This document shows, in pieces, positions 4,756 to 53,059 of a DNA stretch of 64,000 nt. The notes under the pieces are model-generated. The model had not been told where the DNA came from. It saw only the letters and a program-made list of their open reading frames with translations, and searched no databases. This DNA is from an uncultured Muribaculaceae bacterium (GTDB lineage Bacteria; Bacteroidota; Bacteroidia; Bacteroidales; Muribaculaceae), in assembly GCA_947381945.1 (NCBI GenBank), contig CANCXM010000005.1:1-64000 (forward strand), read 5' to 3'. A program made the position numbers and the translations under genes. The number at the start of each line of letters is the position of its first letter. Positions within the stretch are counted from its first letter, which is position 1.

Positions 4756-4908
4756 CAAAATGTTTTATAAATATGTTTTATAACATACGATTTTTAAAAT
4801 ATAAATTCACTAATTTTAACAAATAACCCAATCATCAAATGCCCAAATTCCCAATTCCCAAAAGCCCAATCACCGAATTCCCAACCACCGAATATCCATT
4901 TACCACCC

Positions 4909-51481: not shown

Positions 51482-51919
51482 TTAACTTGCAACTGCCGTG
51501 CAATGAGGGCAGATGCCTTTGAAAATTACGTCGGCCGAATGGACTGTATAGCCTGCAGGGGGAAGCGTGAAGGCTGTTGGTCCGAATTCGTAGTCAACAT
51601 CGGTGACGTGGCCACACGATGTGCACAGGAAGTGGGCATGGTCATGCTGCGAGTAGTCCCAGCGGGCACCGTCGCCACCTCCGATTTCGATGCAGCGGAT
51701 GATACCCGCGGCCGACAGGAGTCGGAGTGTGTTGTAGACTGTCGTACGTGAGAGTGTGGGATGCGAAGGCTGTAGGGCCTTGAATATCTCATCGACGGTC
51801 GGGTGAATCCTGTTTTCCATCAGGAAGCGCAGTATCACCATCCGTTGGGCGGAGGGCTTGACACCACCTTCCGAAAGGATGTTCAGGATTTCCTGAGTCG
51901 TGTAACTATACGCTTGCAT
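51482..51919 (-). CDS. perR: Peroxide-sensing regulator PerR (Fur family)
   Basis: This 145-residue Fur-family repressor has a winged helix (about 12-85) and a dimerisation domain. The structural zinc cysteines are Cys99, Cys102, Cys137 and Cys140. The regulatory metal site would be His39, Asp88, His94, His96 and Asp107; Asp rather than Glu at the last position is the mark of PerR over Fur. Histidine oxidation by H2O2 releases it from DNA. A perfect PerR-box palindrome lies in its own promoter and rubrerythrin follows on the same strand. Confidence 0.93.
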
Positions 51920-51941
51920 AAGGACTGGAATCTTTTTAGAT

Positions 51942-51956
51942 TTGTAATGATTACAA
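51942..51956. promoter_or_regulatory. PerR box (autoregulatory operator)
   Basis: TTGTAATGATTACAA is a perfect 7-1-7 palindrome that matches the PerR-box form TTATAAT-N-ATTATAA at 13 of 15 positions. It lies about 8-22 bp downstream of the likely transcription start of perR. Confidence 0.8.
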
Positions 51957-51970
51957 TTTTGTTTTCATTG

Positions 51971-52001
51971 CAAAGTTACATCTTTGATTTCAATTCTCCA
52001 A
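51971..52001 (-). promoter_or_regulatory. perR promoter
   Basis: TTG (51999-52001) and TAACTTTG (51971-51978) on the minus strand are 20 bp apart. Transcription would begin near 51964, just before the PerR box. Confidence 0.75.
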
Positions 52002-52019
52002 GTGTTTTGGAATAAAATT

Positions 52020-52113
52020 TTGTTAAAATTAAAAGGGAGCAGCTTCACGCGGCTCCCTTTTATGAGTTTCCAATAGGTACAATTTCTAAGGTAAAAAAGA
52101 TTGTTTTAGGTTC
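52020..52113 (-). ncRNA. Candidate small RNA, about 95 nt
   Basis: A full consensus promoter lies directly upstream on the minus strand (52120-52151) and a strong intrinsic terminator closes the segment: AAAAGGGAGC (52031-52040) pairs with GCTCCCTTTT (52052-52061), then a T-rich tract. There is no ATG frame inside. It lies between perR and the LpxH-like gene. It could instead be a readthrough-control hairpin, but the promoter and terminator spacing suit an independent sRNA. Confidence 0.6.
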
Positions 52114-52119
52114 GTGATG

Positions 52120-52151
52120 CAAAGGTAGGCCAAGAATCGGGGGTGGACAAA
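52120..52151 (-). promoter_or_regulatory. Promoter of the candidate sRNA
   Basis: TTTG (52148-52151) and TACCTTTG (52120-52127) on the minus strand are 20 bp apart. AAGAATCGGG (52132-52141) and CCCGATTCTT (52184-52193) bracket the -33 box as a 10-bp inverted repeat. Confidence 0.75.
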
Positions 52152-52195
52152 TTTTTCTGTATGTTATCCAACATAATTTTATACCCGATTCTTTG

Positions 52196-52258
52196 CAAAT
52201 TTTGCTCATTTTAATGATAATTGTTTGATTTATAGCGATATGGTATGAGCAAAATTTG
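52196..52258. repeat. 14-bp inverted repeat downstream of the LpxH-like gene
   Basis: CAAATTTTGCTCAT (52196-52209) and ATGAGCAAAATTTG (52245-52258) are perfect complements around a 35-bp loop. It is the first structure after the LpxH-like gene on the minus strand. No T run follows, so a terminator role is uncertain. Confidence 0.8.
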
Positions 52259-52306
52259 ATAGGTAAAATAGTTAAAATACGTTAATATAATCAATATACT
52301 TATATT

Positions 52307-53059
52307 TTATGGTTCAAAAATATAAGTATTGATTGTTTTTCCGTCCCATTTCGCGTATGAAAAGCGGCTGATCCAATCGCCAAGGATGATGATTTCTCCA
52401 CCTTCCGGGAGAGTCTTCTGAAGGAGGGTATGGCAATGTCCGAAGATGAAGTAATCAATTTTTTCGTTACCGGAATCTGCATTATAGGCACGGGCAAAAT
52501 CGACAAGATTGTCTCCTGCTCGTTCGGTCGGGGTGTAGCCACCTTTCTTGCGGGAGTGTGATGACCACGAGTGTGCGAAGCCGATTGTCCACCTTGGATG
52601 GATAGCTGCATAGAGTCGCTGGGCGATGCGGTTTCTGAAAAGTGCACGGAGTTTGCGGAACGACCAGGGAAGACGGCCCACACCGTCGCCGTGTTCCATG
52701 AGGAAGCGCCGTCCGTCGAGTTCGGTGACCATCGTGCCGTCGTGGAGAGTAAAGCCTATCTCATTGGGAAGGTAGTCGGAAATCCAGATGTCATGGTTGC
52801 CTTTGAACCAGGTAATCTCGACCCCGGAATCGGCCAGTTCGGCGAGGGCTCCGAAGAAACGGGTGAAACCACGGGGGACTACGGTGCGGTATTCCCACCA
52901 ATAGTCAAGGATATCGCCGAGAAGGAAGAGGCGTTTGCAATCCGGCTTGATATGGTGCAGGAAGTCGACCACTCGCTTCTCGTGCGCGCGCGGGTCCTTA
53001 ATATATGACGCTCCGAGATGGATGTCGCTTATGAAATATGTTGTCGTTCGCTCGGCCAT
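52307..53059 (-). CDS. lpxH: LpxH-like UDP-2,3-diacylglucosamine diphosphatase
   Basis: I start this at ATG 53057-53059 (250 residues), because the longer frame overlaps the upstream gene. It is a calcineurin-type metallophosphoesterase with FISDIHLGA, GDILDYW, KGNHD, EHGDG and GHCHT metal-binding motifs, in the order seen in LpxH, which makes lipid X in lipid A synthesis. Other related phosphoesterases are possible. It lies 17 bp after the DUF59 gene on the same strand. Confidence 0.85.
   Translation of the reverse strand: MAERTTTYFISDIHLGASYIKDPRAHEKRVVDFLHHIKPDCKRLFLLGDILDYWWEYRTVVPRGFTRFFGALAELADSGVEITWFKGNHDIWISDYLPNEIGFTLHDGTMVTELDGRRFLMEHGDGVGRLPWSFRKLRALFRNRIAQRLYAAIHPRWTIGFAHSWSSHSRKKGGYTPTERAGDNLVDFARAYNADSGNEKIDYFIFGHCHTLLQKTLPEGGEIIILGDWISRFSYAKWDGKTINTYIFEP

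Follow-up and report, generated by a model that had tools for sequence, protein, structure and literature searches.

The window, a stretch of 64,000 nucleotides from a Bacteroidales genome (G000, contig C5), raises the question of what is encoded between two of its protein genes. The order on the minus strand is an lpxH-like gene (stop at 52307), a candidate sRNA, a Fur/PerR-family gene (51919-51482) and a rubrerythrin gene (51414-50863). An earlier note on this DNA read the interval as an independent, perhaps regulated sRNA beside peroxide-defence genes. Is there such a gene, what might control it, and with which RNAs might its product pair?

An independent sRNA gene

The sRNA promoter is an exact match to TTTG-N20-TACCTTTG (52151-52120, minus strand), just as the earlier note had it, and the pattern occurs five times in the window versus 0.23 expected. 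The terminator, which that note called strong, is a real stem (52061-52031), and the 98-nt RNA has a better fold than shuffles (z = -4.2), with the terminator hairpin strong. A start a few bases past the -7 element and an end at the T-run would give an RNA of about 85 to 90 nt. The features are collected in Table 1.

Table 1. Positions of the sRNA gene, its putative control elements and its neighbours in the window
Feature	Position	Strand	Basis
lpxH-like calcineurin-type phosphoesterase gene, conserved upstream neighbour in the window's family	52307..53056	-	Upstream in 28/29 loci (L002-L030)
Palindrome TATGTTGGATAACATA of the Cur (BT4338) type, ahead of the promoter	52160..52175	-	Published consensus matched in both half-sites
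-33 element TTTG	52148..52151	-	Exact promoter match
-7 element TACCTTTG	52120..52127	-	Exact; retained with variations in relatives
Predicted sRNA, BTnc060-type	52029..52116	-	Conserved in relatives; both ends inferred
Nearly invariant unstructured 5' region (seed)	52061..52112	-	37-locus alignment
Predicted pairing stretch for the FopS 5' region, partly also for mRNA sites	52064..52102	-	Duplex computation
Intrinsic terminator hairpin	52031..52061	-	Covariation
Fur/PerR-family gene with a promoter of its own, downstream in certain lineages	51482..51919	-	Pfam FUR
14-bp inverted repeat	52258-52245 / 52209-52196		Not conserved
10-bp inverted repeat	52193-52184 / 52141-52132		Not conserved
Direct repeat TTAAC-N5-TTAAC, just past the lpxH-like gene	52271-52285		Kept in 19/40 loci
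Palindrome TTGTAATCATTACAA, past the perR promoter and ahead of the start codon	51942-51956		Presumably PerR-like
Second perfect TATGTT-N4-AACATA palindrome	4772-4787		No obvious sugar gene adjoining

Conservation of the stem and a covariance search across Bacteroidales had been named earlier as checks on the sRNA. The alignment comprises 37 loci (without L016, L031 and L032, which are truncated, L001, a duplicate, and L040 and L043-L051, which are not this sRNA). About 50 nt at the 5' end are nearly invariant in this alignment, whereas the terminator varies with compensation: both sides change in 10 of 12 pairs, 96.4% of cells are paired, and none of 500 shuffles equals this. The window RNA contains no ATG frame, as previously claimed, and its only short frames start with TTG. 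A peptide product was rejected, since no frame is common to all 37 aligned loci.

A DNA search (E<=0.001) finds matches in 40 of 61 genomes, the window's own included. A covariance model recovers the RNA in just 41 of 295 genomes of the order, which is counted against the explanation preferred below, and in 6 of 395 genomes of the phylum, all six within the order; misses are likely because the filters were strict. By a pattern scan of named genomes, which gave 80 named loci out of at least 120 stretches, the RNA is found in Muribaculaceae, Duncaniella, Barnesiella, Bacteroides, Phocaeicola, Prevotella, Segatella and Xylanibacter; one record, a MAG, bears the label Roseburia, which may be wrong. 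The sRNA core is absent from a viral collection searched for the exact pattern. Each Bacteroides and Phocaeicola genome searched yielded one copy. Extra complete copies (L358-L366), with terminator, seed and -7 box, are found in Prevotella, Segatella and Xylanibacter genomes.

The promoter, the covarying terminator, the wide conservation in Bacteroidales and neighbours that differ by family make an independent and probably regulated sRNA gene of about 90 nt well supported, in agreement with the earlier note.

The 14-bp and 10-bp inverted repeats to which that note drew attention are both present as read. Upstream of the sRNA, however, 15 loci could be aligned, and the window species alone has the repeats; as the remaining 14 loci retain neither of them, they look incidental, and a function for them was rejected for want of conservation. 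What is conserved is the palindrome TATGTTGGATAACATA, which lies within the 10-bp repeat and had gone unnamed.

Genomic neighbours and the peroxide connection

The upstream gene, called LpxH-like in the earlier note, has a Pfam Metallophos_2 match below the cut-off. It accompanies the sRNA almost throughout the window's family (Table 1), yet among 80 named loci it was found upstream in just 11. Of the 29 loci L002-L030, eight have the genes for PerR and rubrerythrin downstream; L016 ends at the sRNA and cannot show them. Three Bacteroides loci have the sRNA between PhoU-like and riboflavin-synthase-like genes, and two others have it by a glutaminyl-tRNA-synthetase-like gene (names by reading the sequences). 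The neighbours thus differ between lineages, as expected of a stand-alone gene.

Proximity to peroxide-defence genes is therefore true of this locus and not of the family at large, and a peroxide link of the sRNA is unsupported: the palindrome at its promoter fits the consensus of the regulator Cur and not a PerR box, the neighbour conserved in the family is the lpxH-like gene, and the Bacteroides and Prevotella copies adjoin other genes. The presumably PerR-like palindrome TTGTAATCATTACAA sits at the perR promoter instead, a position that suggests perR autoregulation, and the Fur/PerR-family gene is not part of the sRNA system. One could still regard the RNA as nothing more than a 3' fragment of the lpxH mRNA, or as a perR leader or attenuator, possibly under peroxide control. 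Its location between lpxH and perR in the window invites this reading, and read-through from lpxH is compatible with the sequence. We nevertheless consider it very improbable, given how seldom perR follows in the family and lpxH precedes in the named loci, where other neighbours are found; moreover, perR has its own TAACTTTG box in addition to the palindrome. A perR leader or peroxide sRNA was rejected on these grounds.

Relation to BTnc060 and other known RNAs

The window copy matches the Rfam family BTnc060 (RF04184) with 40.7 bits (E 4.9e-5) over model positions 1-213. The S. copri copy scores 73.3 bits and that of B. gallinarum 167.8 bits, so that genera of intermediate position have intermediate scores; the gathering score of 228.9 bits is reached by none of these three, nor by any of 14 named loci. 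Judged by homology along seed and terminator, at scores below that gathering score, the sRNA is a Bacteroidales-wide homologue of the uncharacterised BTnc060. It shares with BTnc060 of Bacteroides the seed AACAAUCUUUUUACCUUA...UACCUAUUG, the terminator, the Cur-type palindrome and the promoter, all in identical order. It differs in its low score and its genomic neighbours, and in that the 213-nt Rfam model covers what is promoter DNA in the window. Because the model, as aligned to B. gallinarum, takes in both the palindrome and the inner promoter, its 5' half is probably promoter DNA, or else reflects a longer second transcript.

No paper on BTnc060, and none on a sponge of the sRNA FopS, was found in the literature searched (supplements, bioRxiv and subscription papers aside). 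The family is catalogued but uncharacterised in Bacteroides; the present analysis adds predictions of its regulator, its partner sRNA and its regulon.

With FopS (RF04319) and GibS, sRNAs that regulate PULs, the RNA has in common an unstructured 5' seed followed by a terminator, a connection (here a predicted one) with glycan genes, and the Bacteroidales promoter. It is opposite to FopS in polarity, however, being complementary to the FopS seed, and is not a FopS member: no match to RF04319 (gathering score 56 bits) is found at E<=5 in 51900-52320. Enterobacteria possess sRNA sponges and CRP-controlled sRNAs, among them ChiX-type traps, Spot 42 and CyaR. The likeness to these would be one of working principle, namely RNA titrating RNA and CRP-type control of carbon use; promoter and regulator here are those of Bacteroidales, and no sequence relation is claimed.

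A Cur-type palindrome at the promoter

For the CRP-like carbon-limitation regulator BT4338/Cur, PMC3878776 proposes the consensus wwwTATGTTnTAnAACATAwww, which is supported at fusA2 (PMC6989115). The two half-sites of the box upstream of the sRNA are free of mismatches in 24 of 38 loci and have at most two in 35, versus 1.6% of shuffles, and the box keeps a single fixed spacing in 36 of the 38. Among 79 named loci, 31 have a box with at most two mismatches, versus 2.7% of shuffles. Both scans place the palindrome at the promoter, where a member of the Cur regulon would have it, and the sRNA promoter is predicted to be under Cur control. A precedent for a Cur-activated sRNA is MasB (BTnc201; PMC10994844), which the present RNA resembles to the extent that the box predicts the same regulator; the reported target of MasB is a tetratricopeptide gene, and no Rfam match joins the two RNAs.

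Two observations are counted against this part of the explanation. The box is missing in most Prevotellaceae loci among the named loci scanned. In the window's own genome, boxes with at most one mismatch occur in 17 places versus 10 for a control pattern, which is weak support, and of the four perfect boxes just two agree with this explanation, one at the sRNA and the other at an aldose 1-epimerase gene. The same genome encodes four cNMP-binding proteins, one of which (L383) has both cNMP_binding and HTH_Crp_2 domains.

In many Prevotellaceae loci (for example, L215, L249 and L259) a TGTGTG..CACACA-like palindrome takes the place of the Cur box, lying some 23 bp farther upstream; it may be a CRP-type site of another kind. 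A second perfect palindrome of the Cur type is also found elsewhere in the window (Table 1).

Complementarity to FopS

In gut Bacteroides, FopS acts post-transcriptionally to hold back glycan transporters; it represses susC translation and is antagonised by the protein RbpB; the available text of PMC11697453 names RbpB as the sole antagonist, and no RNA. The window's own genome has FopS at L381, with an Rfam score of 59.2 bits versus the gathering score of 56 and with a Cur-like box in front, and Rfam assigns eight further loci to FopS. FopS-like loci are found in all 27 genomes of the genus (weakest best E 7.7e-23), and FopS is multicopy.

The computed duplex between sRNA and FopS lies between -27.1 and -32.0 kcal/mol in 27 same-genome pairs, which are related sequences and not independent tests, versus about -15 for shuffles, of which at most 4 in 300 do equally well. 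The Rfam consensus sequences of the two RNAs give -26.5 versus -11.8, equalled by none of 500 shuffles. When the 80 named loci are paired with the FopS consensus, the mean is -27.8, compared with -12.7 for shuffled and -9.8 for reversed FopS, and 78 of the 80 beat all 60 shuffles. Within the same genomes, the sRNA is accordingly more complementary to the FopS seed than composition-matched controls are, as would be expected of a FopS sponge.

These data point to the sRNA as a Cur-activated antisense partner, or sponge, of FopS that would also pair with mRNAs of sugar genes, and we give this reading a probability of roughly 0.6. Two observations on FopS are counted against it. The duplex in Muribaculaceae has an internal loop. 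In addition, a Cur-like box within one mismatch precedes FopS in 13 of 30 loci, with the best box at one spacing in 21; because FopS too carries such a box, the two RNAs would be induced together.

Complementary sites in mRNAs

Outside the sRNA itself, a 64-nt antisense query finds 30 sites in the 27 genus genomes when E<=0.01 is required and 113 when the limit is relaxed to E<=1, whereas the reversed query finds 0 and 21, respectively. All but one of the 30 sites are intergenic. Likewise, 29 have the sense orientation relative to a neighbouring gene no more than 300 nt away; for 19 of them this is the sole orientation, and none is antisense only. With up to one mismatch allowed, a 16-mer complement of the sRNA occurs 67 times in these genomes, that is, 27 times in the sRNA itself and 40 times elsewhere, versus 5 for the reversed pattern; six of the 40 are copies of a single element repeated in G009. 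Complementarity flanking the 16-mer beats shuffles (p<=0.05) in 19 of the 40 loci, by a test that counts orthologous pairs separately and that coding matches mostly fail.

The sense sites in leaders or 3' UTRs largely belong to glycan and sugar genes. By Pfam, genes behind leader sites encode GH32, GH43 and GH88 enzymes, a TonB-dependent receptor, aldose 1-epimerase, phosphomannose isomerase and OmpA; genes before 3' sites encode ECF sigma factors, GH97 and a PfkB kinase, the last with a site at E 0.027 that is outside the 30. Two of the ten proteins scanned have no Pfam match. The window's own genome has just one mRNA site at E<=0.01 (L151, before a gene without a Pfam match), which is counted against the sponge reading.

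In 12 named Bacteroides and Prevotella genomes, the 16-mer has 23 matches, comprising the 12 query sRNAs and 11 others, of which nine (L358-L366) are paralogous sRNA copies and two (L357 and L367) are not. The 16-mer search thus does not replicate the mRNA sites beyond the window's genus.

Might the complementarity be an accident of descent at the DNA level, or a shared DNA-binding motif, so that the sRNA is real and has other partners? The support for pairing is computational, and AT-rich stretches of low complexity pair easily. Against such an accident, composition-matched controls fail, the orientation of the sites is consistently sense, and some sites lie in 3' UTRs between convergent genes (L152, L179 and L180), where a promoter element is unlikely. 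We regard this possibility as decidedly improbable.

A reversal of roles deserves more weight, but it too seems unlikely. Here the sRNA would chiefly regulate the mRNAs of sugar genes by way of their leaders; FopS and the 3' UTR sites, for example, those behind ECF sigma genes, would act as sponges because they mimic the leader site. Sense mRNA sites are many, some of them in tandem and some with 20 to 50 nt of complementarity; they match the lineage variant of the sRNA itself (TTTCTAAGG) and not FopS sequence, as found with the sRNA as query; and FopS is multicopy. However, FopS has a published role of its own as a susC repressor (PMC11697453), and the predicted pairing with FopS holds in Bacteroides and Prevotella, where the 16-mer search found no mRNA sites.

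In several species, sites complementary to the sRNA recur on the 3' side of ECF sigma-factor genes (L133, L139, L159, L160, L162, L181, L182, L184 and L185), and it is possible that they represent 3' UTR sponges or targets. L133 and L139 were rejected as sRNA paralogues on account of this location. BLAST matches away from lpxH were likewise rejected as paralogues, most being antisense to the sRNA and in front of sugar genes.

A possible route to glycan priorities

The sponge reading is preferred because it accommodates the terminator covariation, the near-invariant seed, the spread over several families, the Cur box statistics, the FopS duplex and the sense mRNA sites. It describes a trans-acting RNA from an independent gene, with pairing as computed and with regulation as we infer it. 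Cur would activate the sRNA during carbon limitation; the sRNA would pair with FopS along about 40 nt, titrating or destabilising it; and the loss of FopS would relieve repression of SusC-type transporters. The sRNA may additionally pair directly with sugar-gene mRNAs and act on their leaders, in either direction.

A more specific proposal, which we hold tentatively and at somewhat less than even odds, is that this is a native, dedicated anti-sRNA of Bacteroidota, a single chromosomal RNA under Cur control, and that a Cur-driven switch of two RNAs sets glycan priorities. The near-invariance across families would then arise because the whole unstructured region must pair with multicopy, partly phage-borne FopS and with leaders of glycan genes.

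If true, the sRNA may help to decide which glycans gut Bacteroidales eat, and a conserved RNA antagonist under a carbon-starvation regulator would be a missing layer in glycan ranking, one that also accounts for the near-invariance of an uncharacterised sRNA. The circuit is directly testable in the tractable organism B. thetaiotaomicron, whose copy is BTnc060.

Eight stretches on viral contigs (L417-L424) also carry the FopS seed.
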